In this document: piece by piece, positions 7,320 to 22,494 of the stretch
Numbering within the stretch: position 1 is the stretch's first letter
How the letters are laid out: each line of letters starts with the position of its first letter
Source of the DNA: Phycisphaerae bacterium
GTDB lineage: Bacteria > Planctomycetota > Phycisphaerae > SM23-33
NCBI GenBank assembly: GCA_030754715.1
Contig: JASLZV010000001.1
Span: 1-22,494 of the forward strand
Direction of reading: 5' to 3'
Length of the DNA stretch: 22,494 nucleotides
Notes under the pieces: generated by a model
The model's database searches: none
What the model was told of the DNA's origin: nothing
What the model saw: the letters and a program-made list of their open reading frames with translations, nothing else
Translations under genes and position numbers: made by a program

Positions 7320-7886
7320 CTACCTGTCGGGATTGGGCGGCTTCTCTATAGCAACCTTCTGGCGTATCGCACTGTCGCTATCAGTTGTCCCCGGTGGAGC
7401 CTCTATTGGAACCCACGCCCGGGAATAATTGTGGCTAGCAACCTTTCGATGTTTGATGATTGAGCCATCCAACATCAATTCGAGTTCGTCGAATTTCATA
7501 CTGAACAAATCGTTGTATTCAGTATCGGTCATACGCATGACGCGCTTGAGCGTCTTGACTAACTTGGACAACTTGTGAGCAACCATCGCTCCACGTCCTC
7601 GATTGATTTGGATGTGCAGGATCATCGCCTCCGTATCATCGCAATCAATCCACGTCACCGGGACCTTTCCCTCGCACGCTTCATTGATGGATGCGTTGTC
7701 CAGCACGATACGCAGACGCTGTCCGCCGTCGATGATGTTGGCCCCCTCCCGTTGCACCACTAGGGGCGCCAGAATCCCATGCTCGGCAATGGATCGAGCC
7801 AGAACTAGCAGGTCGGGCCTCAGAATGTAGGTGGCACCCCAATCGGGGATGTTGAGAGATTCGCCCTCAACCAGTTCAATCTCCAT
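7320..7886 (-). CDS. ParB-like (ParB/Srx fold) protein, IbrB-like
   Basis: A 188-residue protein with a ParB N-terminal-type domain: an SIAEHGILAPLVV segment (residues 32-44), then NIIDGGQRLRIV with the DGxxR motif at residues 53-57. A following segment (HIQINRGRG, then a helix) resembles the N-R/helix element after ParB catalytic domains. The ATG at 7886 overlaps the PAPS-reductase-like stop by 11 bases and has AGGAG eight bases upstream. Beside a PAPS-reductase-like gene this matches the IbrB partner of IbrA; phage ParB-like proteins may act as nucleases, ATP/CTP-binding switches or regulators. Specific activity unknown. Confidence 0.8.
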   Translation of the reverse strand: MEIELVEGESLNIPDWGATYILRPDLLVLARSIAEHGILAPLVVQREGANIIDGGQRLRIVLDNASINEACEGKVPVTWIDCDDTEAMILHIQINRGRGAMVAHKLSKLVKTLKRVMRMTDTEYNDLFSMKFDELELMLDGSIIKHRKVASHNYSRAWVPIEAPPGTTDSDSAIRQKVAIEKPPNPDR

Positions 7887-9006
7887 CCGTCATCTCCTTC
7901 ATTCGGAGCGTGTGCGCTCGAGTCTTTGGCCCAACTGGCGACACCGATCTGGCGCTGCCGATTTCCTTCAGCAGCAAATGACGCAATAGGTTTTCGAATG
8001 GATACGAATACGGATCGCGAGCATGCTTGCGACGAAACTCTGCGGTCAGCGCCATAGCCCGTTTGGTGTTACCGGATCCCATCATGTAAGTGTCGATGAA
8101 CTCAGAGACGCCATCCCAGCCGCCCTCCGAATAGATGGCGATGAATTTCTCAACGTCGACATCTTTCCACCATCGTCGCTGGGCGTCTATCTGAGGGAAG
8201 CATTCACAGAGGCGGTCAAAGAACTCTGGTTCTGTTGCTACCAAATCGCCGATTCGTCGGATGGCGACTGCATGCAGTGGAACTCCGACCCTCGTATTGG
8301 AGCCAGTCGCTACCGCTCGGTCGTAGTACTCACAGTAGGGAGCGTTGTGTTCTTCTGAAATGAACCTGAACACGTCGTTGACATTCCAGTCGTAAATGAT
8401 TTTGGCCAACTTGAGGGGAACGCTCTTACTCAACTTGTACGGATTGTTGATGTAGTTCTCGTGCAACTTCTGGACAACCGACCGGTAGCGGATCATGGAC
8501 TCGGAAGCCCTGACTCCAGTAATGAACGCAACCTGACCGGCCTTGCCCTGCATCGTGTATTCGTCCATGGATTTGGTTAAGGGTTCGGAGTGATCCAACC
8601 CGAAATGAAATGCGGTGATAGCCCACTCGGGTATGGGGCGTACAAGTTTTCCTTCTTTTGCTCGCTCCTCATCCCAGATGATCAAAGATTGCCGTCTGCC
8701 CAGTACCCAAATCTCTGCACCAACAGGCAGGCAGTACCACTCCATGTCCACCCAGTCGAATTGGCGAACCGTGTTGACGTACTCCTCAACAAGCGGGCTG
8801 ACCATCTCTTCGTCACGAAAAATGACTTTTACCGGGCCTAGACCACGTTCCTCATGGATTTCCTTGGCCAGGTATAAGGCCGCCGTGCTGTCCTTGCCCC
8901 CGGAGAACTGAACACAGACAGTGTCAAACGTGTCGTAAACGTGCCGGATTCTTTGTCGGGCCGCCTCGACACACGAGATGTCGAGGAACATTCTCTGACG
9001 GCTCAT
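7876..9006 (-). CDS. PAPS reductase-like P-loop pyrophosphatase protein (IbrA/DndC-like)
   Basis: A 376-residue protein with the PP-loop motif SGGKDS at residues 35-40, which binds the ATP or PAPS pyrophosphate. RDEE (DxE region), a WYCLP segment and GVRASES (GxRxxES) follow, and YDWNVNDVFRFI matches the tryptophan/DVW helix of IbrA/DndC relatives. The ECGIH C-terminal motif of true PAPS reductases is absent, so sulfate reduction is unlikely. Homologues pair with ParB-like IbrB or act in DNA phosphorothioation (DndC). Here it is flanked by ParB-like genes on both sides, with an ATGA overlap to the upstream one. Role inferred as DNA modification or regulation. Confidence 0.85.
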   Translation of the reverse strand: MSRQRMFLDISCVEAARQRIRHVYDTFDTVCVQFSGGKDSTAALYLAKEIHEERGLGPVKVIFRDEEMVSPLVEEYVNTVRQFDWVDMEWYCLPVGAEIWVLGRRQSLIIWDEERAKEGKLVRPIPEWAITAFHFGLDHSEPLTKSMDEYTMQGKAGQVAFITGVRASESMIRYRSVVQKLHENYINNPYKLSKSVPLKLAKIIYDWNVNDVFRFISEEHNAPYCEYYDRAVATGSNTRVGVPLHAVAIRRIGDLVATEPEFFDRLCECFPQIDAQRRWWKDVDVEKFIAIYSEGGWDGVSEFIDTYMMGSGNTKRAMALTAEFRRKHARDPYSYPFENLLRHLLLKEIGSARSVSPVGPKTRAHTLRMKEMTDGD

Positions 9007-9788
9007 GGTTCTGAATGAGAATCAATAAACGAAAGAATCTTTTGTCCCGTGGTGGCTCCGTCGTAACCTGGATTGTTTCGGAGCCACCGAACAAAGTCGT
9101 ACCATCGCTTCTGTTGATCGGGGTCGTCAAAGACGATCGTGTATTGGACTACAGCGCGAGGGGCAGCGCCCGGAACCAATGCCGTGCTGCCTTGAACTGC
9201 GACATCACCATGGTCCATTGAATCGTCAGCGACGATCTGTCGTTCTCCGTCCTCGCCCTCCCGAACCATTCCCGCCAACATCTCGGCTGCAGCCCCAACC
9301 ACTTCTGTGAGTGCCGGAGTAATGAAACCGACCTCATCGCCATTGTCGGACTTGCCTTTCTTGGACTGCTCTTCGTAGTAGGCGATCTCAAAGTCGTCCC
9401 ACTTGAGGCTTTCCATCAGATCGCTATATTCATCGACGATCTCAATGATCATGTCGGACGCCTGAACCGGGTCCGTGTATCCCAACTCCACAGTCCGGTT
9501 GTCTGCGAGGGCAAATGCAACCGCCCGCTTGTCGTCCGCGCTAATCGGCACAGCAGCGATGTGCGTCCATCCGAGACGCTTAACTGCCTCAACCTGGTGA
9601 TTGCCGGCGACGACGGTCGACGTGCCATCGTCATTCGGTCTCACCACAATCGGTTTGACTTGACCAAACTCCTCATAAGAGGCCATGATCGCTGGGACAT
9701 TGCCAACTCGTGGGTTGTATTCCAGCGGAGCAAGAGAATCCAGAGGAACCAGCAGGTCGTTCAGTGCTTCGTTTACGTTGTGTTTCAT
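9003..9788 (-). CDS. ParB-like protein with C-terminal phage-type domain
   Basis: A 261-residue protein. The ParB/Srx domain at the N-terminus shows VPLDSLAPLEYNPR, FGQVKPIVVR, VVAGNHQVEAVKRLG (GNHxxxA at residues 62-68) and ADNRTVELGY. The C-terminal 45 residues (VQYTIVFDDPDQQKRWYDF followed by a GATTGQKILSF stretch) look like a separate small domain common to phage ParB-like proteins. I prefer ATG at 9788, with AGG six bases upstream and a TGATG overlap; an adjacent GTG at 9791 is possible. The stop overlaps the next gene as ATGA, so it is translationally coupled to the PAPS-reductase-like gene. It may bind or nick DNA. Confidence 0.82.
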   Translation of the reverse strand: MKHNVNEALNDLLVPLDSLAPLEYNPRVGNVPAIMASYEEFGQVKPIVVRPNDDGTSTVVAGNHQVEAVKRLGWTHIAAVPISADDKRAVAFALADNRTVELGYTDPVQASDMIIEIVDEYSDLMESLKWDDFEIAYYEEQSKKGKSDNGDEVGFITPALTEVVGAAAEMLAGMVREGEDGERQIVADDSMDHGDVAVQGSTALVPGAAPRAVVQYTIVFDDPDQQKRWYDFVRWLRNNPGYDGATTGQKILSFIDSHSEP

Positions 9789-10132
9789 CACGGGCCTACT
9801 TGAAATCTTACGTTGGCGTTGAGTGTTCGCATGGCGTCAATCGAGGTTCGCAACGACAGCAACTTCTCACGCTTCGCCTTGACGAGAGCCTCGGCACACT
9901 TGAAATCAAACTGCGTGTCTGCCAACTTGTAATCGGCCCAAGACTCCCGCTCTTTGATCGACCCCTTGGCAGACAGGTACTCCTTAGCCCAACTCCCCTT
10001 GTATCGCGACTCTTTCTTCGCGGCGTCTTCCGCCAACTGCTCGAAGGCTTCGGTCTCGCTCTCTAACGATTCGATCAGGTACATGAGTTGATGCTCAATG
10101 TCGACCTGACTAATCGGTTGTGATCGGTTCAC
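9788..10132 (-). CDS. Small coiled-coil hypothetical protein
   Basis: A 114-residue, almost wholly helical protein with heptad-like spacing over residues 15-100 (SETEAFEQLAEDAAKKESR, then an ADYKLADTQFDFKCAEALVK stretch) and a short polar tail. The start is GTG at 10132, with GGAG four bases upstream, overlapping the RuvC-like gene by 23 bases. Similar helical proteins occur in recombination regions of phages, but I cannot assign a function. Confidence 0.65.
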   Translation of the reverse strand: MNRSQPISQVDIEHQLMYLIESLESETEAFEQLAEDAAKKESRYKGSWAKEYLSAKGSIKERESWADYKLADTQFDFKCAEALVKAKREKLLSLRTSIDAMRTLNANVRFQVGP

Positions 10133-10661
10133 CGTTCTCCGCTCCCGCCATCATCAGCAATGGCTCCCAATCGATATTGTCAAGAGCCTTGAGATTCTCA
10201 GCGGGCCACTCATACTCACTCTGCCCCAATCGCTGCAGGCCCATCTCGCGAAGCACCCACGCGTCAATGCGATCCTCAATACCCTTGCCCGACCAGGATC
10301 TCTGAGTTCTGAACGACACCGCTGAAATAACCTCAGCCTTGCCGGAGTTCCCACGCCCGGTAGCAAACTTGGCCCGTGAGGTGGGGGGCACGATTACGAA
10401 GGGAATCCATGCTTCGTCAAACGCCACCTTCAACACCCCACCCAGTTCCCCAAGGGAATGCGCTCGGGTGCGCGAACCATAAGAGTAGCCTTCCATGATG
10501 ACACATTTGATATTTTCTTCCAAACATGCTCCCAAGACATAATTACGAATATCTGTTAGTCGTGCCGTTTCTTCCTCATATGAGTGGAATGCAACACAGG
10601 AATTATCTCCGGTGCATACCCCTGTCGAAGTAAGTGATGGGTCGAGACCAAGAATGTTCAT
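10110..10661 (-). CDS. RuvC-like Holliday junction resolvase
   Basis: A 183-residue RNase H-fold nuclease. Strand 1 is ILGLDPSLTSTGV with the catalytic Asp7. VIMEGYS gives Glu57, RAHSLGELGGVLK is the helix following it, and IEDRIDAWVLREMG gives Asp130 and Asp133. Resolvases cut branched DNA before or during packaging. I chose ATG at 10661, which overlaps the HNH stop as ATGA; a TTG at 10670 would add only three residues. It fits with the neighbouring HNH, PD-(D/E)XK and Rad52-like genes as a recombination/repair module. Confidence 0.88.
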   Translation of the reverse strand: MNILGLDPSLTSTGVCTGDNSCVAFHSYEEETARLTDIRNYVLGACLEENIKCVIMEGYSYGSRTRAHSLGELGGVLKVAFDEAWIPFVIVPPTSRAKFATGRGNSGKAEVISAVSFRTQRSWSGKGIEDRIDAWVLREMGLQRLGQSEYEWPAENLKALDNIDWEPLLMMAGAENGEPITTD

Positions 10662-10960
10662 TTCATCCAACCCTGTTTAGCGAGGCCCAGGTGGAAGGCG
10701 AGTTGCGGGTGTTCCCCAATACGCCGATGACACTGACGACACACCGCCATGCAGTTTGACTCATCTGTAATAGATCCCCCCTGAGAGCGACGCTTCAACT
10801 CATGGATGTCGACGCTGCCGTTGCGGATGTAGGAGCCAACACCATCATGTTCTGCGAAAATCGGACAGGCTTCACAATAAGGGCGCTCTTTCAGCATCCG
10901 CTTGACCAGTTTGCGACGCTCAACATATTGACGCTGCTTCTTCTTACTACGATTACGCAC
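10658..10960 (-). CDS. HNH endonuclease
   Basis: A 100-residue protein with a treble-clef HNH fold. CEAC (residues 29-32) and CRQC (residues 74-77) form the zinc pair. DIHELKRRSQGG carries the first catalytic His53, followed by Asn69 and His78 in CHRRIGEHP. The N-terminus is strongly basic. The start is GTG at 10960 and the stop overlaps RuvC as ATGA. In phages, free-standing HNH proteins of this size often assist terminase, but here it is next to RuvC rather than terminase. It may be a nickase or a homing-type enzyme; there is no intron or intein signature around it. Confidence 0.88.
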   Translation of the reverse strand: MRNRSKKKQRQYVERRKLVKRMLKERPYCEACPIFAEHDGVGSYIRNGSVDIHELKRRSQGGSITDESNCMAVCRQCHRRIGEHPQLAFHLGLAKQGWMK

Positions 10961-10978
10961 GCTTGAAGCCTACTCTCA

Positions 10979-11482
10979 TCAAAGAGACAGCGGGTCCACC
11001 CTGTCAAAGTCCCAACGGTTGTCAAGAGTGGCCCATAGGGCTCGATCGATTGCGGTATCTTCCAGGTCATAGTCGTTGAGCATGTTCCTGTGCATGATGA
11101 TTGCCCGGCGATAGAACTCAACCGTTTCCCACGGATTCTCATCAATTGGCTGACCCGTTTTAAGCATGCTTTCCACTTGACTCAAGCGGCGCTCAACATG
11201 CAGGCGAAACCGTTGGACTTTGGTTTCGCGCATGTCGTAGGCTCGTGCGGCTTCGTCCGCTAAACGCTTACCGGCCCGCCCCATGCCCTCGTACCTGACC
11301 GCATCGGCCTGAGCATCTATTTGGATGTTCTCGATTTGATCTTCGAGATTGTCCAGAAGGGACAAGAGCCCCCTCTTCCAACGATCCCAATTCTCTTCGA
11401 GCATCAACTCTTTTCTTTGCTGCGCGGTAACGCGATTCTTCACGTCGTCCGCAACTAATCGGGCAAAGAATTCGTCGGGCAT
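10979..11482 (-). CDS. Helical hypothetical protein
   Basis: I take ATG at 11482, with AGGA six bases upstream, giving 167 residues; ATG at 11515 is a possible longer start overlapping the nuclease gene by 13 bases. The protein is predominantly helical and charged, with a central coiled-coil-like region (LLSLLDNLEDQIENIQIDAQ) and a C-terminal region with WETVEFYRRAI and DFDRVDPLSL. No catalytic motif is visible. The position between two nuclease genes suggests a DNA-metabolism accessory role; unknown. Confidence 0.65.
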   Translation of the reverse strand: MPDEFFARLVADDVKNRVTAQQRKELMLEENWDRWKRGLLSLLDNLEDQIENIQIDAQADAVRYEGMGRAGKRLADEAARAYDMRETKVQRFRLHVERRLSQVESMLKTGQPIDENPWETVEFYRRAIIMHRNMLNDYDLEDTAIDRALWATLDNRWDFDRVDPLSL

Positions 11483-11502
11483 CATGGTTCCTGTTTCTCC
11501 GG

Positions 11503-12270
11503 CTAGTTGACCCATAGTGGACAAATTCCTTTGTAACTGCACCAGCCACACAAAACAGACTTTTGTGCAGGAAAATCTCCTGTAGCACATGCTTTATCTA
11601 TGTCGTCTTTTACGTCTCTCACATACACACTTGTGTTAATAAGAACTTCTTCACTAAAGGGAACTTCGAACTTAACTCCGTCTTTCAGGTAAAGCAGTTC
11701 TAGACTGGTGGTGCGTCCGATGCTCAAAGTGTCTACTAGCGTTCCATAGATGCGTAGTTGTAGAAATCGATCATCGACGTATTCTTTTCGTGGAACCTTG
11801 CCGGTCTTGTAGTCGGAAATGACAACTCCACCGTCTTCACTCATGGTGAAACGATCGATGAACCCTTTAAGTCTTACTCCAGACACTTCCCCATTGAGTT
11901 CGAACTCCAGGCCGTCAGGTTCTATGTCTTCTGGATTCTCGATCTTCCACAGGTTCTCGATACACCACCAAGCCTTCCAGCGGAACATCCGATACTCCTC
12001 AGCATCGGGAACGAGGGGCTTGACCCTCCGCTCCCAATTGCCCCTGTCCCATACTTCCCGGGCCAAGGACTGAGCCTGAGCCTGAGAGCGTTCTTCGGGA
12101 GGCAGGCCGTAGAGTTCTTCAAGGACATCGTGAACGAAATTTCCCATCAACGCCTCCTTGCCGGAGGGGTCGGGAATCTTGTCGATCTTGTTGTATTTCC
12201 ATTTGAGGGGGCACTGGCGGAAGGTCCCCATTGACGAGGGCGACAGGTGCGGGGGCGGCGTGGCTGTCAT
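11503..12270 (-). CDS. PD-(D/E)XK nuclease, RecB/Cas4-like with Fe-S cysteines
   Basis: A 255-residue RecB-family exonuclease-like protein. LSPSSMGTFRQCPLKW opens the fold with Cys20, GNFVHDVLEEL provides His47, LKGFIDRF gives Asp139, and VISDYKTGK gives Asp153 and Lys155. QLRIYG gives Gln171 (QxxxY), and the C-terminal CGWCSYKGICP supplies Cys241, 244 and 250. Four cysteines in this arrangement match the iron-sulfur cluster of Cas4/AddB-type nucleases. The ATG at 12270 has GGAAG seven bases upstream; an upstream ATG at 12309 has no good ribosome site. Beside a Rad52-like annealing protein, a two-component exonuclease/annealase recombination system is plausible. Confidence 0.88.
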   Translation of the reverse strand: MTATPPPHLSPSSMGTFRQCPLKWKYNKIDKIPDPSGKEALMGNFVHDVLEELYGLPPEERSQAQAQSLAREVWDRGNWERRVKPLVPDAEEYRMFRWKAWWCIENLWKIENPEDIEPDGLEFELNGEVSGVRLKGFIDRFTMSEDGGVVISDYKTGKVPRKEYVDDRFLQLRIYGTLVDTLSIGRTTSLELLYLKDGVKFEVPFSEEVLINTSVYVRDVKDDIDKACATGDFPAQKSVLCGWCSYKGICPLWVN

Positions 12271-12311
12271 GTCAGATCTTCCATACTTAAGGCATCCATT
12301 TGTATTCATCC

Positions 12312-12428
12312 CTATTTAGATTTGGCTTCTTCCTTTTCTTTCCTGTATCGCTCGGCCTCTTCTTCTCTGTGTTGAAGAAGTTCCTTGCGAGTAAACGTGT
12401 CGTACTGTTGCTTCATGATGCTGCCCAT
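12312..12428 (-). CDS. 38-residue charged microprotein
   Basis: A short frame of 38 codons. Its ATG at 12428 overlaps the stop of the zinc-ribbon gene by one base (TAATG), a strong sign of coupled translation. The sequence is highly charged and helical (KELLQHREEEAERYRKEKEE). It fills the gap between two genes in a densely packed operon. It is too short for a functional guess, and a spurious ORF cannot be ruled out. Confidence 0.45.
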   Translation of the reverse strand: MGSIMKQQYDTFTRKELLQHREEEAERYRKEKEEAKSK

Positions 12429-12583
12429 TATTTAACGCGATCCACTTTCGGGTCGATGGCGGTGCCGCAGACATTACAGGACGCGTCGTACCGTTCCGCG
12501 GATCTACCGTCCATGTAGTGGCGGACGCACGACGGACATCGGTACATGGAATTCTTCGGCCACTTCACGGCCGGCTCACTCAT
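12428..12583 (-). CDS. 51-residue zinc-ribbon protein
   Basis: A 51-codon frame starting at ATG 12583 and overlapping the end of the Rad52-like gene by eight bases. It contains YRCPSC, and about 20 residues later SCNVCG, giving CxxC-x20-CxxC, a clear zinc-ribbon pattern. Both cysteine pairs are followed by polar, basic sequence, typical of nucleic-acid-binding or protein-docking ribbons. Its placement suggests an accessory to the annealing protein and nuclease. Confidence 0.65.
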   Translation of the reverse strand: MSEPAVKWPKNSMYRCPSCVRHYMDGRSAERYDASCNVCGTAIDPKVDRVK

Positions 12584-13229
12584 TTACGGATTCGGCACCA
12601 AAGGAGATGGCGACGCACTTCTCGACTAGGGCCGTCAGGTCCTCGACACTACCCATGGCTTCGGGCTTTGGCTTGGGGCGTTCTCCTGCATGCTCTTTCC
12701 AGAACACCGCCACCTCTTCCTTCTGCGTCTTGTCGAACTTCTCGATCAGGCTGGTGAAGTTGTCATACAACTGCTTCACTTCCGGATACTGCGCCTCATG
12801 GGCCTCATGGGCGAGGGCTTCCTCAGAGCGGTAGAGGTACAAACCCACGCCGATCATGGAAGCAGCCTTCTTCAAGGCGTCGGAAACCGCGATCTTGTGA
12901 TCATTGCCCAAATCGAGCAGGTCCCCGTCCCTCTTTGTCTTGACCTCTGAACCGCCGTATGCGTCCCTTTGAAGCGGCTTGTCATTGATGTACGCCGACA
13001 GGCGGACATGGGCGATGATGTTGTCGCCCCCCTCAAGGCTGCGTTCGCAGGAGATGACCTCGAAGGTCCAGTTCTCGACTCCAAGAACGTCATTGAGGCG
13101 TGCAATAACCTCGTTGACCGATACAAATCTGAATGCCACTCCCCCCTTGTTCAGGGTGCCCTCCAGTTCTGCGGGGAACGGTGTGGATAGTTGCTTTAGC
13201 AGATTCTTGCTGCCGATGTGATCAGTCAT
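12576..13229 (-). CDS. Rad52-like single-strand annealing protein
   Basis: A 217-residue protein with the Rad52/Rad22/Rad59-type core. FRFVSVNEVIARLNDVLG is followed by ENWTFEVI, beta strands with HVRLSAYI, then RDAYGGSEV and the characteristic LGNDHKIAVSDALKKAASM-IGVGLYLY helix-strand. This fold forms DNA-annealing rings used for phage recombination. The C-terminal 70 residues are helical and Lys/Glu-rich, perhaps a partner-binding tail. The ATG at 13229 overlaps the previous stop as ATGA. It probably cooperates with the PD-(D/E)XK nuclease, which would make the 3' single strands it anneals. Confidence 0.87.
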   Translation of the reverse strand: MTDHIGSKNLLKQLSTPFPAELEGTLNKGGVAFRFVSVNEVIARLNDVLGVENWTFEVISCERSLEGGDNIIAHVRLSAYINDKPLQRDAYGGSEVKTKRDGDLLDLGNDHKIAVSDALKKAASMIGVGLYLYRSEEALAHEAHEAQYPEVKQLYDNFTSLIEKFDKTQKEEVAVFWKEHAGERPKPKPEAMGSVEDLTALVEKCVAISFGAESVNE

Positions 13230-13738: not shown

Positions 13739-15043
13739 TCAAGCGAGAATAGCCGCTCGTTTACGCTGGGGCAAGCCTAAGCCTGTAAGGAATGAAAAAG
13801 CCCCCGTCGCCGAGTCAACCTGATCGTCGTGGGGGCAGGCTTCTGGGAATGCCGAGAACTCATCGAGCCAGTCGGTAAGCCACGTTCCTCGCACCACTCG
13901 CACATTGCCATTAGCAATGGCCGCTGCGAACGGACGGGCACGAGTCACCTTGTCACCGGTAGATCGGATGCCCATGATGTCGAACCCCGGCACAACGAAT
14001 CTGGCGTACTGGTTAATAAGGGCCTTTCCGGCAGACCCCGGCTCCTGCTCCATCCGGATGGGAACTGACGCTCCGTCCTCATACGCCGTCTGGGCGATGA
14101 ACTGTTCGACCTTCTCTCCCCTGTGGCGAATCTTTTTAACATCCAGGACGTAAGCAATGCCTTGGTCGAAAAGCATCAGAGTCCCTACCGTCCAGTCAGG
14201 GTCCGGGTAGGCGGGAGATGGTTCCGATGCTGCAAGGTCCCAGAACCGAACTGCCTTCGCTTTGGGGGTCAATGTCGGCAACTCTTCATTCTCCAAGAGA
14301 ACAACAGACTCTCTGTCAAACATGGTTCCCAGGGTGGTTGACCACCAGTCGCCTTCCTCAAGGCGTTTGCGTTCTACAGGGTCCAGCGCCTGAAGGGACT
14401 GCCGATAGGACTCAGCGTCGATGCCCGGATTGTCGGTCAGTAGCGACGGGACAAAAACTCGACCAGTCGTTTCGGCCTCCACAATGAAGCGTTGCCTGAC
14501 CCAGTTGGGCGCGGGGTTGGAAGCACACCTCATCCTCAGAGGAACCTGAGATACGGGACCCGTTGCCGGTCGCCGCAGTCGAGAGAAGAGGTAGCGGTAA
14601 TCATGTTCTCTGATCTCGGTGACCTCGTCCATTCCGATGAACTGGAACTCCGCACCCTTGTAACGCAAATAGTCCTGGCTGTTGTTTAGATAACCGAATG
14701 AGATTCGTGCCCCAGATGGGAATGTGGCTACATACAGGGACCCATTCCATGACACGTCGTCAGCGTTGGCAATCCACGTCGTGAAGCGGTCCATGATGGC
14801 GCCGGGCAAAGCGAGGTCGGCGTAGGTGCGACGGAAGATGATGGCGGAGTAGTTCGGTACATCCACATATTGCAACGCCGACATAAGCAATGCTGAAGAT
14901 TTACCCCCGCCGGCTGCACCGCCGAACAGACCTTCCATGGCGTAGGTGCGCAGAAAGACCTTCTGCGTTAACGAAGGAGTCTCCGGGCAATACGGAGAGT
15001 CCTTCGGTTGTAAGAATGCTAAAATACTTTCCCAGTCAGCCAC
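13739..15043 (-). CDS. Terminase large subunit
   Basis: A 434-residue packaging ATPase/nuclease. The Walker A motif is GGAAGGGKSS (residues 41-50), the R-R-T-Y-A-DL segment follows, and the Walker B region is FQFIGMDEVTE with Asp139/Glu140. A coupling-motif-like SNPAP follows. The RNase H-like nuclease domain has RFWDLAA (Asp269), IRMEQEPGSAGKAL and HDDQVDSATGAF (Asp406/407/410). The start is GTG at 15043 with AGGAG eight bases upstream. It powers DNA translocation through the portal and cuts concatemers. No small terminase is recognised in the window. Confidence 0.96.
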   Translation of the reverse strand: MADWESILAFLQPKDSPYCPETPSLTQKVFLRTYAMEGLFGGAAGGGKSSALLMSALQYVDVPNYSAIIFRRTYADLALPGAIMDRFTTWIANADDVSWNGSLYVATFPSGARISFGYLNNSQDYLRYKGAEFQFIGMDEVTEIREHDYRYLFSRLRRPATGPVSQVPLRMRCASNPAPNWVRQRFIVEAETTGRVFVPSLLTDNPGIDAESYRQSLQALDPVERKRLEEGDWWSTTLGTMFDRESVVLLENEELPTLTPKAKAVRFWDLAASEPSPAYPDPDWTVGTLMLFDQGIAYVLDVKKIRHRGEKVEQFIAQTAYEDGASVPIRMEQEPGSAGKALINQYARFVVPGFDIMGIRSTGDKVTRARPFAAAIANGNVRVVRGTWLTDWLDEFSAFPEACPHDDQVDSATGAFSFLTGLGLPQRKRAAILA

Positions 15044-15284: not shown

Positions 15285-17273
15285 ATGGCTTGGAACTCTC
15301 CAGAAACAAAATCCCACCAGATGGCAGCGGGCAGGGCAATCGTTGGGCCGGGGGCACCAGTAGCCCAGAACGTTAGCCTCGCCGGCCAGCCCTACCGTGA
15401 TCCGTGGGACATAGAGCGAGCCCATAGCGAAGGCATGCAGAAGGTCACATGGGTGGCCCGCTGCATCGACGCCATCGCAGGGAACCAAGCACGCCTTCCG
15501 GTCATTCTTCGAAAAGACAATTCGCCAAATGGTGAAATCATCACCAGCAAGAGAATCAAGAAGGATTCCATATTAGACCTTCTTAATACTAAATCTAATA
15601 TCGGAGAGAACTCCTTCATCTTCCGGTACCGACTCTCAGCCCAACTCCTCATGGGGACACGCGGCGCATTCGTTGAGAAGATACGCGGACGAGATGGCCG
15701 GGTGATTGGTCTCAACCTGCTCCCACCTCAGACCACGGCTCCCATCCCTCATCCTAAGCGATTTGTTTCCGGGTATGAGGTCGCCATGCCGGATGGCAAG
15801 AAGATCATCATGCCGCCTGAGAGCGTCGTGTGGATTCGTCGACCGCATCCACTCGACCCGTACCTCTCCATGACCCCGATGGAAGCCGCTGGCGTGGCTA
15901 TCGAAATCGAAAACCTCGCCAAGTTGTACAACCGAAACTACCTCCTCAACGATGGTCGTCCCGGAGGACTGCTGGTAGTCAAGGGAGAGATCGATGATGA
16001 CGACCGGAACGAACTGAGAAACAGGTTCCGAGGAAACCTGGGCCGAGCAGGCGCAACCACCGTTATTGCTGCTGATGATGGTGTCGATTATGTCGACACT
16101 TCCGCAAGCCCCCGTGATTCTGCCTACGTCCAGATGCGACAGATCACAAAAGAAGAGATTTTGGCCTCGTTCGGTGTGCCCGAGTCGGTCATCGGCAATG
16201 CCTCTGGACGAACTTTCAGTAACGCTGCCGAGGAAATTCGTGTGTTCTGGAGCGAGACCATGGCACCCCACCTCCAGCACATTGCTCGCGCCCTAGACGA
16301 GTTGGACGACAAGCACTACGTCGACTTTGACCTAGACGAAGTTCCAACTCTGACGATGTACCGACAAGAACGATCACGCTATGTGTTGCAGGAGTTTCAG
16401 ACTGGTCTGATCAGTGCCAACGAATACCGAGAAGCAACTGGACGTAAGATAGTCCACTCAGACCTCGGAGACTCCCTCCTGCAAAACCCGAACCTCACCC
16501 CCATAGCGAATACCCACAAAGAAACAGAACCAGAACCCAACGTAATGATGGGTCCGGGTGGGCCAGGTGGACCCGGAATGCCAGGAGCGCCCCCAGGAGC
16601 GCCTCCAGGGGCTCCTGGGGAAGGAACGCCACCCGGAGCGGAAATGCTTGATCCAAACACCATGCAGGGCGCTATGGCGGCTCAGGCGGCAGGAGCGCCA
16701 CAGCAGTTGTCCGAAGAGCCCGCCGGAGGTATGGAGTTCAAGGACACGCTTTCAGCCTTCACAGATTTTGATTCCGACTTGGACAGATGGTCGGGGATTT
16801 TAGACCGAAGCATTGAGCGTCTATTCGAGCGTCAGCAGAGAGTGGTTTTAGAGAAGGCCGGTGGGGCCAAGGCCAGAAAAGCGCTATCTAAGGGAAATCT
16901 TGTAGTTGACTTACTCATGCCTCAAGATATTTGGGATAAACAAATGGAAGAGGATATTCGCCCAGTTCTAAATGCGATTATTAAAGATGCTACCGAATCG
17001 CATTCAGAAAAGTCGGCAGAGTATTCCCCACCCATTGCTGAGGACATTGTTACTCATGTCAATTCTCAGATGGATAGGATCAAGGCAATCAACATTGATA
17101 GCAGGGAAGCGATCGCCAAAGAAATCGCCTACTCTTTACGCATAGAGGAAGATGAGCATCGGCTGGCGGCATTCAAGTCTGCCCTTGTGGGTCATTTCAC
17201 CAACCTCTTGGCCAAAGTGCGTCCACAAACTGCTATCGATGAAACGCGTAGGGCTTGGAATCTAGCGGGCTAA
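15285..17273 (+). CDS. Portal protein (HK97-type) with collagen-like linker and C-terminal extension
   Basis: A 662-residue protein. Residues 1-415 show the HK97-family portal pattern: WVARCIDAIAGNQARLPV, PPESVVWIRR, YLSMTPMEAA, YNRNYLLNDGRPGGLL, ITKEEILASFGVPESVIGN and FWSETMAPHLQHI. Residues 423-454 form a Gly/Pro-rich collagen-like stretch. Residues about 475-662 form a mostly helical, charged extension with no recognised fold, giving a protein longer than typical portals (about 400-500). The portal is the dodecameric DNA channel. The extension might project into the capsid or act as a scaffold/internal domain. The DNA encoding the extension is visibly more AT-rich. Confidence 0.93.
   Translation: MAWNSPETKSHQMAAGRAIVGPGAPVAQNVSLAGQPYRDPWDIERAHSEGMQKVTWVARCIDAIAGNQARLPVILRKDNSPNGEIITSKRIKKDSILDLLNTKSNIGENSFIFRYRLSAQLLMGTRGAFVEKIRGRDGRVIGLNLLPPQTTAPIPHPKRFVSGYEVAMPDGKKIIMPPESVVWIRRPHPLDPYLSMTPMEAAGVAIEIENLAKLYNRNYLLNDGRPGGLLVVKGEIDDDDRNELRNRFRGNLGRAGATTVIAADDGVDYVDTSASPRDSAYVQMRQITKEEILASFGVPESVIGNASGRTFSNAAEEIRVFWSETMAPHLQHIARALDELDDKHYVDFDLDEVPTLTMYRQERSRYVLQEFQTGLISANEYREATGRKIVHSDLGDSLLQNPNLTPIANTHKETEPEPNVMMGPGGPGGPGMPGAPPGAPPGAPGEGTPPGAEMLDPNTMQGAMAAQAAGAPQQLSEEPAGGMEFKDTLSAFTDFDSDLDRWSGILDRSIERLFERQQRVVLEKAGGAKARKALSKGNLVVDLLMPQDIWDKQMEEDIRPVLNAIIKDATESHSEKSAEYSPPIAEDIVTHVNSQMDRIKAINIDSREAIAKEIAYSLRIEEDEHRLAAFKSALVGHFTNLLAKVRPQTAIDETRRAWNLAG
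16551..16646 (+). repeat. Collagen-like Gly-X-Y/Pro-rich linker inside portal
   Basis: About 32 residues of Gly-Pro-Gly, Gly-Met-Pro and Gly-Ala-Pro-Pro repeats, encoded by GGTCCGGGTGGGCCAGGTGG-type and CCAGGAGCGCC-type repeated DNA. It separates the portal core from the C-terminal extension. It may act as a flexible or polyproline/collagen-like spacer. Such G/C-rich short repeats are prone to slippage and length variation. Confidence 0.75.
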
Positions 17274-17370: not shown

Positions 17371-20300
17371 ATGCCTGTAGGGATGGAAACAGATATCCAG
17401 ATCAAAGCCAGTAATGGCCAGGTTAGTGTTGACGAGGCCCAAGGTATCGTTGAGTGCTTCGTGGCCGCCATTGGCAACAAGGACTCCGTTGGCGACATCA
17501 TTCAGCCGGGAGCCTTCGCTGGAAGTCTCCAGCGGCGAAAGCCACGCGTCGTCTGGGGTCATAACTGGAACGACCCTATCGGCAAAGTTCTAGACATTCA
17601 GGAAGTCGGACCCAGCGACCCACGTCTCCCGGAGAAAATGAAATCGGGAGGCGTTGGGGGCTTGTATGCGCGAGTCCAGTTCAACCTTGGATCTGAAAAG
17701 GGTCGAGAAGCCTTCGCCAACATCGCCTTCTACGGAGAAGAGCAGGAATGGTCAATTGGCTACAAAACGATCAATGCCACATTTGACCCAGTCCGACAGG
17801 CAAATATTTTGCACGAAGTGGAACTGTATGAATGTTCCCCCGTCCTACATGGCGCGAATCAACTGACAGGAACCATTTCCGTCAAGGGTGCAGAAGCGGC
17901 CGTTCTGGAACGCACAGACACGTCAGGCGACGATCTCGAATTCGCCTTTGACGACCTTTACGAAAAGGGCGGAATGCTCGCAATGATGCCCGTAGAAACT
18001 CCACGGGCTGAGAACATGTCTGATCAACATGATCGCAAGTTGGAACTGGAATTGCAGTCCCGTTCGCCACAGCCGATCAAACTGATCAGTTCAGCCGAAG
18101 GCTCGGCTATTTTCCAGGTTCAACGTTCCGATAATGGAACAGCGATGTACCGAGTCCACTTCCATTACCACCCAGAGCGTGGATTCATGCTGGGCCAGCC
18201 CGAACGAGTCGTCCCACAGATGATGTATGCCCCCTTCAAACCGCCCGGCGTCCAAGCGAAACCGCAGGTGAACCCTGCCAATCGCTACGAGCAGAGTCCA
18301 GCAGACGCGGTCATGCCCAGGATCATGCGTATTGTTCAGAAACTGGACACCGATAACAGCGAAAAAGGCGGAGATCAACTGGTGATCTCGTGCAAACTTG
18401 AAGATGCTTTTGCCACCAAGTCACTGCTCGATCCCATTATCGATTATCACGGCGCAATCGCTGAAGTAACCGAAGAAGGAATCATCATAAAGTCGGGGGC
18501 GACGCCCGATTTCATCGAAGCCGTCGAGACGGCTACAAAGGCCTTAGGCCGGAGGCTGGGTCGTGGTCTTCTCCGAGGCGGTGGTGGAGGGTCGGGAAAA
18601 GTTCGTAGGGCCGGAGCGGCCCTTCGAGGTTTCAACCCAGACGCCAGAGACGCCGACTTGGACATGCTTGTCCAGGAAGGCACGCCATGGGAACGACCGG
18701 CCCTTCCTCGCAAACCGAAACCATTTGATGGCGCTTTTCGTTCCGGTAGACGCTTACTGCAAGGGCGCAATTGGGACGAACGGGGCGATGACGAAGCCGG
18801 TCCCGACACCCCAACTCCGGACGCCCGAGCAGAGGGCGTTGCCATGGACGAGCGCCCCCCGACCAAAGCACGCATGGGGGAATTCACGCGCGACGAATAC
18901 CACGCATTCCTCAACGAGCAGGCCCAGAAAATTATCAAGGCCTACGGAATCCAGGACGTAAGCGACCCGCTCTACCCTCATCCTGCACTGACCGAGTTCG
19001 ACAACTTCGACCACACCGAACTTGTGCCCATCGATTTCTTTAACGACATGCCGGGCAACATCGGACCCGCAGCCAGCAACGGTTGGGACGAGGACGCCGC
19101 CACTCGTGCTGGAGAGATGCGGAGTTACGAACTGGACGCCCCCATCATCATGGGGAAATTGGACGAGTTGACCGAAGACATCCGCGCCAACGGCATCAAA
19201 CATCCACTGGTAGTTCAATACGATCCAGAAACCGGCACCCTTGCTCTCGATGAGGGAAACCACAGACTGGCTGCCGCACAACGACTAGGCATGAAAGTTT
19301 TGCCGGTAAGGATGCTCAGACAGCCTTCGGCCAAACGGAGGAGCATCCGTGGTCCCAGAAAAGAAATCCCCACCCAAACAAACGGTAGGGGTGATTTGGT
19401 TACTGTCGGGGGAGAACTTCTTGGACCCAGTTTTAAGCCTTCAGACATTGGTGTTAACACGCAAAGTGTGACCCCTGAAATGAGGCGGCTGCAGATGCTG
19501 GTGGCTGCTCGCGGTGGGAGCAGCCAGCAAGCGGCAAGGAGGAGGCGGCGTGGGGCTTTGGAGTCCACCAGAAACAGGTCCGACTTTCGGGCAGCCAGAG
19601 TGGCCCCAGACAGGGAAGGCGGCCAACGGATACAGCGAGGGGCTTCTCGCACTCCCGAACTTGCGGCCAACGAGAGTGCTGTTTGGAACAGGGCGATGGA
19701 GGCCAGCCAGGCCAGTCGTCGGGCCGCCGAACTGCGCGGCCGAGGCTTCAACGAATTAGAGGTCACCTCCCTCATGAATCCCCCCTCGATGAGGCCAGCA
19801 GGGTTGGCGTCTAGAAGGAACTTCCATGGCCAAGACTCACATCAGAATCTGCGAGATCTCATAGATGCTCGTGAAGCAATGCTTGATTTCTTAACAGAGA
19901 ATCCGCATTTTGATGAAACCGTAGATTTCACCTACGATCCCGAGACCCGCACATACCCCGGCCTAGATGACTTTCCTGGTGGCATCAAGGCTTGGGATTC
20001 GCTCATGGACGACTGGGAGGAACTCAGGACCGAATACGGCAACATCCTCGACGGGTTCAGAGAGGAGAATCAGAACCTCCAAGAAGCGAGAGAAAAGGTC
20101 GACAAGATACTCGGAGAACTAGCCGACTTAGATAAAGATTTGGATAGAAACCTCGAGTTTATCGAGGAATTGGCGCCCAGCCGAGCGGCGAACGGCGAAT
20201 ATCTCACAACAGAGGTCATCAAAGAGTTCTTGCTAAAAGACGACTATGACGGACTCCGGGCATTGTTCACTCCAGAATATGTTTTGGAACGGCACGAGAA

Positions 20301-22494
20301 TCGCAGGGGCGATCCGGCGGGCGATTTCGAGGATCTGGAGATTGACGAATCTGAAGGCGTACCTTACTGGGAAGCATCCCTCAAGTACGGATGGCAAGCA
20401 GCAAAGAACACCAGAGGAGACATTGAAGAAAAGGAGCAGGAGCACTACAGCGCCGAGGAAAGTGTCAGCCAGCATGCACGAAATGGGCAGGACGTAGTCC
20501 TAGAGGCTGCTGAGAAGATTGACAAATTTGACCGCAACATGAATATCGAAAAGCGGGACGACGATTCATTTGTGGCGAGCCCTGAGGACGCAGAGCGCAT
20601 GGCCGAAAGGCTCGTATACGGACAGGACCTGGAATCGTCACGGATGGACGCGACAACCGGGAGTCTTGAGGGCTTCTCACCTAAGGGAACAGGTTTCCGG
20701 TCACAGCGTGGCGCTGGACTGGGAGAAGACTTCGAACTGGACTCATCTTTCAGCAGCGCCATCAGCCACGCGCACTACAACGCTGGCGATGAAGAACTCG
20801 CCGTCACCTTCAAGGGGGGACGAACGTACATCTACGGAGGCGTCGCTCCCGACATCGCTGCTGTCGTGAATGCAGAGAGCAGCCTGGGCGAAGCCGTCAA
20901 CGAATGGATTAAGGGTAGAGAGTCATACCTGATCAAGCCCGATGGCACGGTTGTGGATCGCACGGGTTTCGCCACCGAACTGCCGACATTGGGCGAGAAA
21001 CTGAAGCGACATGCCAACAGGCTGAGAGACCACAGGGGACTGGACAGGGCGGAATCTGCGACCTTCAAGAAAGCCCGAAATATTCTCGATGGGACCGACA
21101 CTTCCCCGGCCAAGCCTGTCGATCGGTCGCTGCTCGTTAATGAACTCAATCATCTGGCCGACAATCTCTGGCGCGATGAAGAACCGCATGTCGCAGGACT
21201 CTTGCGCGATGCCGCCGCCGTCATTAGGTCCGATCCTGGACGGCGAGTCAACGCCCATCACAGTGGCCGAATGGAAGTTTCTCTTTCTGAAGAAGAGATT
21301 GGTGAAATCAGTGATGGCCTGAAGTCCGTGCGAGCCAAATACGATGGTCATCCCAACATCGAACGTGGTTTGTCTGCATACGATGAAAAACTCCGAGATG
21401 CTAAAGGCGGTAAAGTTAGTTTGGATTCCGCTGAGTACAATCAGATTCTCGAATCGTATGCCCGCCTTGATGCAATGGATCCGGATGGCTATTTCAAACC
21501 CGGTCGAGACGTTCTCGAAATGGCAGCCTTTTCCAAGAAGGGCAAATGGGTTTCTCCTAACGTCGCCAAAGACTCACAGTTCCCTGACCGACCACATGGA
21601 TTTGCTTCACGGCGTCCCAATAACGGCGCACCTGCCGACATCACGCCACGCCTTCAGGGAGATTTAGTCAATTGGGCACGCCAGCAGAGCGGCTTCCGTG
21701 TGGTTCAGGACTTGGTGCGGCGTTATGACCGTGGCGGAGAACAGTTGTCGCCGCGAGATTGGATTCGACTCCACGACTACTACGCGAACTACAGCCCGGC
21801 CGGCAGGGGGATGCCGCAGTACGGAGAACGTCGTGGCCTTCGATCATCTAGAAAGAAGCCCGACCCTAAGTGGGCTGGTGGGCAGCAACCTCACGAGGGC
21901 CTGGGGCCTGGACAATCGCGATTCTTCGGCCGGAAATGGGAGGAACTCAAACCGGGGAACTGGGATGAACTGAGCCTTCAAGAGCAGGCGGAAGAATTGA
22001 TGGTCAATTTCAATCCCCGCTCCAATCCGAATAAACCACAACTCTTCGACTGGCCGCCTCCCGAGGAACGTCTCAGGAGCGTTGACTACGACCGCATTCT
22101 TGGCGAGATATCTGAACAGATCGAGACTCAGGAGGAGCGAGCAAATCCAGGTCTGGCTATAGCGCGACGACGCAGGGAGCGACGACAACGGATAGCCGAT
22201 GCCGCTAAACCTGTTTCTACGATGCAGCGCCGCCAAGCGCGAACTCAGGAAGATGCACCCTACACCAGGACTCGCCCAGGTTTTCAGGTAGGACTTGACA
22301 ACCTTGACCCGGGTCCCGGTGGCCGACGGCGACGGATACTGGATCCCGAAGGCGGACGAGACATCGGAGACGATGTTGGCAAACCGATCCAGTCCCCAGA
22401 CGAACAGGCGGCCATGGATCGTCGTCTCAGAATAATGGACTCCCTCGATGTGAACATCGGCACCAAGCGCAATGCACTCGCGACCGCATCTATG
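17371..22494 (+). CDS. Giant prohead protease-headed fusion protein (open at right edge)
   Basis: A single frame from ATG 17371 (AGGGAG six bases upstream) to the last base, 1,708 codons with no stop; I checked every codon. Residues 1-170 are a prohead (S78-type) protease: DIIQPGAF, VVWGHNWNDPIGKV with candidate His64, EWSIGYK with candidate Ser128, and EVELYECSPVLHGANQLT. Beyond that lie a small alpha/beta region (about 225-395), Gly/Arg-rich linkers, a ParB-like domain (about 586-650), Arg-rich stretches, a coiled coil (about 882-934), a KTSC-like domain (about 1128-1187) and further unrecognised charged regions. No cysteine occurs after residue 341. Typical proteases of this family have about 150-250 residues. 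I infer a self-processing polyprotein or packaged/injected polyvalent protein; a capsid domain could follow beyond the window. Confidence 0.92.
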   Translation, partial: MPVGMETDIQIKASNGQVSVDEAQGIVECFVAAIGNKDSVGDIIQPGAFAGSLQRRKPRVVWGHNWNDPIGKVLDIQEVGPSDPRLPEKMKSGGVGGLYARVQFNLGSEKGREAFANIAFYGEEQEWSIGYKTINATFDPVRQANILHEVELYECSPVLHGANQLTGTISVKGAEAAVLERTDTSGDDLEFAFDDLYEKGGMLAMMPVETPRAENMSDQHDRKLELELQSRSPQPIKLISSAEGSAIFQVQRSDNGTAMYRVHFHYHPERGFMLGQPERVVPQMMYAPFKPPGVQAKPQVNPANRYEQSPADAVMPRIMRIVQKLDTDNSEKGGDQLVISCKLEDAFATKSLLDPIIDYHGAIAEVTEEGIIIKSGATPDFIEAVETATKALGRRLGRGLLRGGGGGSGKVRRAGAALRGFNPDARDADLDMLVQEGTPWERPALPRKPKPFDGAFRSGRRLLQGRNWDERGDDEAGPDTPTPDARAEGVAMDERPPTKARMGEFTRDEYHAFLNEQAQKIIKAYGIQDVSDPLYPHPALTEFDNFDHTELVPIDFFNDMPGNIGPAASNGWDEDAATRAGEMRSYELDAPIIMGKLDELTEDIRANGIKHPLVVQYDPETGTLALDEGNHRLAAAQRLGMKVLPVRMLRQPSAKRRSIRGPRKEIPTQTNGRGDLVTVGGELLGPSFKPSDIGVNTQSVTPEMRRLQMLVAARGGSSQQAARRRRRGALESTRNRSDFRAARVAPDREGGQRIQRGASRTPELAANESAVWNRAMEASQASRRAAELRGRGFNELEVTSLMNPPSMRPAGLASRRNFHGQDSHQNLRDLIDAREAMLDFLTENPHFDETVDFTYDPETRTYPGLDDFPGGIKAWDSLMDDWEELRTEYGNILDGFREENQNLQEAREKVDKILGELADLDKDLDRNLEFIEELAPSRAANGEYLTTEVIKEFLLKDDYDGLRALFTPEYVLERHENRRGDPAGDFEDLEIDESEGVPYWEASLKYGWQAAKNTRGDIEEKEQEHYSAEESVSQHARNGQDVVLEAAEKIDKFDRNMNIEKRDDDSFVASPEDAERMAERLVYGQDLESSRMDATTGSLEGFSPKGTGFRSQRGAGLGEDFELDSSFSSAISHAHYNAGDEELAVTFKGGRTYIYGGVAPDIAAVVNAESSLGEAVNEWIKGRESYLIKPDGTVVDRTGFATELPTLGEKLKRHANRLRDHRGLDRAESATFKKARNILDGTDTSPAKPVDRSLLVNELNHLADNLWRDEEPHVAGLLRDAAAVIRSDPGRRVNAHHSGRMEVSLSEEEIGEISDGLKSVRAKYDGHPNIERGLSAYDEKLRDAKGGKVSLDSAEYNQILESYARLDAMDPDGYFKPGRDVLEMAAFSKKGKWVSPNVAKDSQFPDRPHGFASRRPNNGAPADITPRLQGDLVNWARQQSGFRVVQDLVRRYDRGGEQLSPRDWIRLHDYYANYSPAGRGMPQYGERRGLRSSRKKPDPKWAGGQQPHEGLGPGQSRFFGRKWEELKPGNWDELSLQEQAEELMVNFNPRSNPNKPQLFDWPPPEERLRSVDYDRILGEISEQIETQEERANPGLAIARRRRERRQRIADAAKPVSTMQRRQARTQEDAPYTRTRPGFQVGLDNLDPGPGGRRRRILDPEGGRDIGDDVGKPIQSPDEQAAMDRRLRIMDSLDVNIGTKRNALATASM
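19126..19320 (+). other. ParB-like domain within the giant fusion protein
   Basis: Residues 586-650 of the fusion read YELDAPIIMGKLDELTEDIR, then ANGIKHPLVVQYDPETG and LALDEGNHRLAAAQRLGMKV with PVRML. The order (helix; G-I-x-x-P-L-V-V strand; D-E-G-N-H-R helix) matches the N-terminal catalytic/nucleotide-binding part of ParB/Srx-fold proteins. It resembles the stand-alone ParB at 9003-9788 (GNHQVEAVKRLG). In polyvalent proteins ParB-like units are thought to act on host or phage DNA after injection. Confidence 0.75.
20014..20172 (+). other. Predicted coiled coil within the giant fusion protein
   Basis: Residues about 882-934 show heptad-spaced Leu/Ile/Val with Glu/Lys/Asp between them (WEELRTEYGNILDGFREEN, then LQEAREKVDKILGELADLD), a probable coiled coil. 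It could mediate self-association or scaffold-like packing. Confidence 0.6.
20752..20931 (+). other. KTSC-like domain within the giant fusion protein
   Basis: Residues about 1128-1187 read SSAISHAHYNAGDEELAVTF, then KGGRTYIYGGVAPDIAAVV and SSLGEAVNEWIKG with a final Tyr. The pattern SS-I--a-Y------L-V-F--G--Y-Y-gV------------S-G----- is that of the KTSC domain, a small domain found in phage and bacterial proteins. Its biochemical function is not established; nucleic-acid or ligand binding has been suggested. Confidence 0.72.

Follow-up and report, generated by a model that had tools for sequence, protein, structure and literature searches.

The window, the whole 22,494-nucleotide stretch of DNA that was analysed (bases 1–22494 of the 28,559-base contig G000:C111), carries a giant open reading frame that begins with a prohead protease. 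Behind the protease, a short motif, G-[L/M/F]-x-S, recurs through the cargo, often with Arg before it and [S/R/T] after it. Judged from the sequence, G-[LMF]-x-S is probably the cleavage site of the head protease, and the gene would therefore encode a self-processing, capsid-delivered polyprotein.

From the ATG at 17371, the frame runs without a stop through 22494, giving 1,708 codons within the window. The first-pass annotation had described an unbroken frame of more than 5.1 kb, and this was borne out on extension along the contig, where the same frame reaches 2,690 codons (a run of N lies inside and is read as X). The near-identical relatives P0003–P0006, with 98% identity over query residues 1–700, are 2,967–2,970 aa long. 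The window and five orthologues (L010, L011, L012, L014, and L015) contain 0 stops when translated over the 17371–22494 stretch, and the differences among orthologues collect at third codon positions (in L015, for example, 274, 193, and 634 at positions 1, 2, and 3). The frame is therefore a selected coding frame, and the long relatives, stop-free orthologues, and third-position bias together rule out a sequencing error or a lost stop codon. Portal and terminase genes accompany the giant frame, as in polyvalent-protein loci. The capsid gene stands separate, which rules out the reading of the frame as a capsid fusion. A scan of genome contigs gave 3 loci. The features of the region are as follows.

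13739–15043, minus strand: terminase large subunit gene, divergent, upstream of the giant frame (PHROG 979, 3.9e-103)
15285–17273, plus strand: portal protein gene, directly upstream of the giant frame (Pfam PF04860, 3.2e-53)
17371–22494, plus strand: giant frame, residues 1–1708 of a protein of ~2,690–2,970 aa, running past the window edge
17434–17877, plus strand: prohead serine protease domain, residues 22–169 (Pfam PF04586, PHROG 80; His64 and Ser128 invariant)
18019–18213, plus strand: conserved beta-rich domain 2, residues ~217–281 (AlphaFold2 blocks 221–280 at pLDDT 75–84), common to the giant proteases
18376–18555, plus strand: conserved alpha/beta domain 3, residues ~336–395; some cargo-free homologs end similarly
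18532–18717, plus strand: shared boundary element A, residues 388–449, a basic Gly-rich stretch and a D-x-D-x-D-like loop, ending ..LVQEGTPWERPALP
18733–18750, plus strand: motif AFRSGR (GFRSGR or GFRSSR in orthologues), the first after element A
19153–19320, plus strand: weak ParB-like cargo segment, residues 595–650 (ParB_N and PHROGs)
19555–19572, plus strand: motif ALESTR (GLESTR in several orthologues)
19798–20676, plus strand: coiled-coil cassette, residues 810–1102, with a second copy downstream in the same protein
19801–19818, plus strand: motif GLASRR, at the left edge of the coiled-coil cassette
20692–20709, plus strand: motif GFRSQR
20752–20919, plus strand: KTSC domain, residues 1128–1183 (Pfam, 34 bits against a cut-off of 25)
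21316–21333, plus strand: motif-like GLKSVR in a predicted helix, possibly no true site
21598–21615, plus strand: motif GFASRR
21835–21852, plus strand: motif GLRSSR

Elsewhere in the window, the minus strand of 7320–13229 holds a cluster in which a PHROGs search found ParB-like genes and one PAPS-reductase-like gene, and in which RuvC-, HNH-, RecB/Cas4-, and Rad52/Erf-like genes were recognized by eye. Several of these genes have same-order counterparts in seven listed loci.

The Peptidase_S78 (PF04586) match at the N-terminus has an E value of 3.7e-9 and 37.4 bits against a cut-off of 21. His64 and Ser128, which we take to be the catalytic residues, are invariant columns in a 38-sequence alignment, and the His and Ser patterns are each present in 118 of the 120 listed homologs. 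The description of the gene product as a multidomain chain headed by a prohead protease thus stands, as both PF04586 and KTSC score over their Pfam cut-offs. Of the further units proposed at first pass, the KTSC domain and the coiled coil are present, and the Arg/Gly/Pro-rich linkers can be seen in the translation; the ParB-like unit is less firm, as ParB_N reaches 19.2 bits, under the Pfam cut-off of 26.3, although several PHROGs ParB families support the segment (best 1.2e-6). KTSC and the weak ParB are the only named cargo domains that profiles find in the window protein. The second copy of the coiled-coil cassette lies near the C-terminus (contig 24028–24882) and is 39% identical to the first, and both copies stand directly behind a GLASR motif.

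An AlphaFold2 model of the N-terminal part, built on 38 sequences, has fair confidence only at the protease (~17–160), the beta-rich domain (217–281), and the alpha/beta domain (336–395); residues 392–505 have pLDDT <50. Two models of the window protein have a low mean pLDDT (46.6 and 48.5) and show separate folded segments, including helical segments after KTSC. Foldseek with these low-confidence models gave no match at E ≤ 0.001, and a comparison of model 1 (the one at 46.6) with the PDB, with a herpes-assemblin-like fold in question, returned nothing usable.

The protease belongs to a large uncultured family in which one protease core comes in two forms, cargo-free (~430–740 aa) and cargo-bearing (~1,000–3,000 aa). 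A search with residues 1–700 among candidates of 0.55–1.75 times the query length found 346 proteins, the best 120 of which span 997–2,989 aa, and a search with a short member as query found 577, the best 120 of which span 280–743 aa. In a gammaproteobacterial bin, two phages with a window-like gene order carry cargo-free proteases of 438 and 444 aa, the former sharing 76% identity with the window protease across 171 residues. The same gene order and a cargo-free protease are seen at L194:3258–15507 and L195:3757–15327, yet these loci hold ORFs of 1,670–2,101 aa almost without the motif. Public databases list a 700-aa family member under the name ‘Prohead protease [uncultured Caudovirales phage]’. 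When the first 460 residues were compared with 50,697 GenBank phage records, 198 matched, none over 80% of the query stretch, and four of the best matches are actinobacterial phages with proteases of 417–641 aa. In a subset of the giant proteases, DUF6321 (PF19846) lies behind the protease domain, as at residues 205–276 of P0016.

The motif emerged from the cargo regions of this family. Beyond residue 460 of the 120 listed homologs, G-F-x-S, G-M-x-S, and G-L-x-S rank 1, 2, and 4 among over-represented spaced triplets; the screen counts each match twice, observed and shuffled alike, and only its pooled ratio of ~7 is usable. A profile from 947 copies in 765 distinct contexts reads R-rich, G, [LMF], preferably [AR], S, [SRT], [RST], and then G-rich. 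Among the 240 homologs listed for the two forms (one, of 280 aa, falls outside the length bins), the 119 proteins of 300–800 aa hold a mean of 0.06–0.11 copies against 0.13–0.18 after shuffling, which is chance level, whereas the 120 proteins of at least 900 aa hold 1.6–10.2 against 0.46–0.88. The number of copies follows homolog length (r = 0.93), with ~10 in the longest. The same holds for 370 non-redundant ORFs taken from giant-protein and capsid loci: the 167 of at least 900 aa have 756 motifs against 96.6 expected, and the 203 of 400–900 aa from the same loci have 54 against 39.4. Other giant proteins of the same phages carry the motif as well, and some giant proteins of the lineage are without it. 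All 8 near orthologues have the seven window copies at matching alignment columns, one of them being one column off.

The motifs are concentrated behind element A. Over the proteins that carry it, motif density per 1,000 residues is 0.6 before the element (21 copies) and 5.1 after it (579 copies). Its core, ..FDPNA.DGD.DG[LI]VQEGT.[WF]ERPA.., is present in single copy in 84 of the 370 ORFs, of which 79 are among the 167 large and 5 among the 203 smaller ones, as defined by a regular expression that misses diverged elements. The D-x-D-x-D pattern presumably resembles EF-hand or dockerin loops. Searching with the boundary element retrieved 17 proteins, and other giant proteins of the same bin also have it. 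Furthermore, the N-terminus of a 1,095-aa giant in this bin aligns with a 136-aa protein that stands alone in relatives (31%, 2e-13, in a single comparison), and cargo has therefore apparently been hung on other small proteins besides the protease.

Several observations concern these further giants and their contigs. Contigs C110, C101, C487, and C90 of bin G000 (loci L007, L008, L196, and L193) are of the same phage type, and on the first two are further giant ORFs bearing the motif and element A. The capsid proteins of C487 and C90 are 71% and 69% identical to a relative's; with two capsid proteins in the bin, at least two such phages therefore seem to be binned together. Second giants at L006:12306–13559, L025:19592–27055, and L048:17012–22225 carry, instead of element A, a conserved Cys motif, C-P-x-G-T-...-F-T-D-...-S-x-C, which few motifs follow. 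The proteins at L008:6–3869, L099:6005–8386, and L100:6650–9898 start with a GCxGAH...GxWMPC-like sequence, and two of the three lie just before the capsid gene. In the L008 protein, DUF3721 (PF12518), a possible metal-binding module, is over the cut-off, and on the same contig, C101, a zeta-toxin-like domain falls below it (20.9 against 22.3). On C487, the ORF fragment that directly precedes the capsid gene (L196:1–831) contains a stretch that by eye is ADP-ribosyltransferase-like (LYHGG).

We found that the motifs lie between domains. None of 50 motifs in six proteins falls inside a Pfam interval, where 5.7 would be expected by coverage; the intervals were entered by hand, omitting a few weak HTH, sigma, and BLOC1_2 hits. 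In the models of the window protein, mean confidence at the seven motifs is 31.6 against 47.1 at random places (p 0.007), and 6 of the 7 copies are in blocks of pLDDT <36, the exception being GLKSVR, which is modelled in a helix. The motifs also coincide with the edges of exchangeable segments. In an all-against-all BLAST of 119 giant proteins with the motifs masked, a motif lies at most 20 residues before the alignment start in 52.9% of 4,751 starts and after it in 1.1%, and just after the alignment end in 40.7% of 2,557 ends; equal random masks, which control for a masking artefact at cassette edges, give 11.1% and 11.3%. Counting distinct start spots only, 32.7% are preceded by a motif against 13.0% with random masks. 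The alignments are mutually dependent and the effect is smaller without masking, where a motif stands no more than 12 residues from 32.1% of 5,109 starts and from 13.4% of random places. The cassettes therefore tend to fill the interval from one motif to the following one.

Selection on the motif is at the protein level, as judged from its coding sequences. The 345 copies of 21 motif peptides are coded by 266 different 12-mers, using all four glycine codons and, for serine, 294 TCN and 51 AGY codons, and this diversity rules out a DNA recombination site. Phages differ at the variable motif positions (GLASTS, GFSSST, GLRSxG, or G[LF][AR]SRR), and this dialect agrees among different giant proteins of one contig. 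Over 20 contigs the agreement statistic is 0.303, a value not reached in 5,000 and 2,000 permutations (null ~0.00, sd 0.073–0.075); the test omits L007 and L008 and ten peptides, such as GLLSNT and GLESPD, that are fixed in other conserved proteins. Composition bias was controlled with random positions in the same proteins (mean z 0.25, maximum 2.3, 30 repeats), and repeated counting of near relatives with clustering of contigs at 80, 65, and 55% identity (14, 10, and 6 clusters), which gave 0 of 5,000, 0 of 5,000, and p 0.014. The dialect common to the giants of one contig suggests that each phage has some reader of the motif. Part of the agreement could come from cassette exchange between the giants of one phage.

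The capsid proteins of the lineage have a similar sequence near their presumed maturation site. Capsid genes are present in 6 of 14 records tested and in at least 80 loci, some sharing contigs; 82 of 88 capsid loci were parsed (L105, L130, L131, L144, L167, and L185 were dropped, and the protein of the L105 contig was read separately). In HK97, the N-terminal part removed from the capsid protein is 102–104 residues long (PMC12749128, PMC9024508). Profile alignment to HK97 sets capsid profile position 155 at HK97 residue 113, and ten residues before it, near the HK97 cut, the profile reads y-s-a-l-p-s-g; the step of ten residues is an extrapolation, as the alignment itself starts at 155. Of 56 distinct sequences, 50 have the pattern [GA][LMIF]x[STG] at one place, with two variants of spacing (9 for the next commonest place), and the other six have Q, T, D, or S instead of G/A. 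All of the 54 distinct segments compared have L/M/I at the hydrophobic position; at the fourth position, 47 have S/T and 7 have G. This capsid site, x-[L/M/I]-P-[S/T/G], is similar but not identical to the cargo motif, having mostly A rather than G at P4, Pro at P2, and no basic flank. It does not vary with the phage dialect and is equally present in two phages whose giants nearly lack the cargo motif. Among four cultured actinophage relatives, the site fits GMA6 and Gray, and not Cantare and Gilgamesh. A cut after its fourth residue would follow the ‘P3-x-P1’ grammar of other head proteases. The head proteases of T4 and of herpesviruses (assemblin) have this site grammar. AXE is likewise a head-protease site of the ‘P3-x-P1’ type, as described for phage SPN3US (PMC10052503).

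We favour the reading of the motif as a cleavage site because the number of copies depends on cargo, because the motif is confined to large ORFs and placed between domains, and because it marks cassette edges. The protein-level selection, the shared dialect, the likeness to the capsid site, and the presence of a protease with conserved His and Ser in the same polypeptide argue in the same direction. Self-processing of the chain is indirectly supported by the repetition of the motif between cargo modules.

Much of this could also be expected of a docking peptide, whose copies would bind a repeated surface of the procapsid (capsid, scaffold, or core protein) so that the long chain is packaged uncut. 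The motif is short, has basic flanks, and scales in number with the cargo, and a within-phage dialect would equally arise by co-evolution with a binding partner. We nevertheless consider docking unlikely, given the similar sequence near the capsid maturation site, the position of motifs at cassette edges on both sides, as cuts would give, and the protease in the same chain. That the motif is a mere flexible inter-domain linker, kept by cassette exchange and lacking any partner, would account for its place in low-confidence linkers and at cassette edges. This is improbable, however, as the many 12-mers exclude a recombination sequence, strong constraint falls on a few positions of linkers that are otherwise free, and the dialect with its composition control argues for a reader acting in trans. 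The slightest chance goes to cutting at the motif after injection, by a host protease or a metallopeptidase in the cargo. Polyvalent proteins often carry MPTase domains that are thought to be self-processing, according to the account of Iyer et al. (PMC5512222), and P0088 has one; P0088 is, however, the only one with MPTase among 14 large proteins scanned with Pfam and the sole carrier of PF18818 among the 120 listed homologs, while it is a head protease that heads the family and the capsid-protein resemblance points to that enzyme.

If G-[LMF]-x-S is the cleavage site, the following pathway may be proposed, in which we infer packaging, procapsid entry, cutting, the exact cut after Ser, injection, and cargo function. 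The N-terminal ~450 residues (protease, the two small conserved domains, and element A) would be the carrier that enters the procapsid. Behind it would come interchangeable cassettes, here ParB-like, KTSC, and coiled-coil, and in relatives anti-restriction, metallopeptidase, sigma/HTH, pentapeptide, and perhaps ADP-ribosyltransferase modules. G-[LMF]-x-S| would be both recognition and cutting site of the head protease. During head maturation, the protease would cut the N-terminal region of the capsid protein at a related sequence, as well as its own tail and, in trans, the other giants of the same phage, and the separated cargo proteins would be left in the head with the DNA, ready for injection. 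More tentatively, this widespread uncultured lineage may use the motif as part of a ‘punctuation code’ for capsid cargo. Head proteins including the protease would carry a D-x-D-x-D-like element followed by freely exchangeable cassettes that each finish in G-[LMF]-x-S, and a single protease, itself the front of a giant chain, would act on the whole set in cis and in trans during capsid maturation, the dialect of each phage being matched to its own protease.

The cargo of relatives bears on the earlier suggestion that the frame encodes a polyvalent protein. Pfam finds ArdC-N (ArdcN) and MPTase-PolyVal over the cut-off in P0088, pentapeptide repeats in P0112, and sigma-70 region 4 with HTH_3 in P0072, all over the cut-off. 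ART-PolyVal remains below its cut-off of 31.2 bits in a 965-aa ORF on C110 (27.6) and in the second giant of L017 (18.0). ArdC-N, MPTase, and ART domains belong to the repertoire described for polyvalent proteins (PMC5512222). The suggestion is supported in part: a protease-headed multidomain chain does stand beside the portal gene and is widespread, and in P0088 it has ArdC-N and MPTase-PolyVal; the window protein itself has only KTSC and a weak ParB as named cargo domains.

Multidomain packaged proteins and processing by head proteases are both already known. Like the polyvalent proteins, which are described as phage proteins of great length with many domains, encoded alongside portal and terminase genes, and which their authors compared to the polyproteins of eukaryotic viruses (PMC5512222), the present proteins are giant chains at such loci, one of them with ArdC-N and MPTase-PolyVal. 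In that description, peptidases of the assemblin type occur rarely and only at the C-terminus (Iyer et al. 2017, PMC5512222), and the N-terminal head protease differs from the described arrangements for that reason, as do the repeated candidate site and its sharing by several giants of one phage. The words ‘Linker’ and ‘KTSC’ are absent from the main text of PMC5512222. In SPN3US, as far as PMC10052503 describes it, the head protease gp245 processes several head proteins at AXE, a short motif with several copies in propeptides, and its self-cutting is known; there, eight separate substrates lose an N-terminal propeptide, whereas here protease and cargo form one chain, with the cargo behind and the motif between modules. 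P1 DarA, DarB, and DdrB and the T4 internal proteins are packaged anti-host proteins with N-terminal capsid targeting and, for some, believed processing (PMC9024508), a likeness that would extend to packaging here. As PMC9024508 presents P1 and T4, however, protease and cargo are separate genes and no repeated inter-domain site is mentioned. HK97 and D3 have the same kinds of portal, protease, and capsid protein, and their protease removes the N-terminal domain of the capsid protein, but the 32 kDa protease of HK97 has no cargo tail according to the same source (PMC12749128). In searches of the open-access PMC literature, we found no description of an N-terminal head protease combined with repeated inter-cassette sites across several giants.

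If the cleavage-site reading is correct, tailed phages would have a polyprotein strategy in which the release of many injected proteins is coupled to capsid maturation in one chain. It would also give a sequence rule for recognizing packaged cargo in uncultured phages, namely whatever is flanked by two G[LMF]xS sites downstream of the boundary element, and thereby a ready set of counter-defence candidates. Furthermore, the specificity of head proteases would become approachable by comparing dialects.
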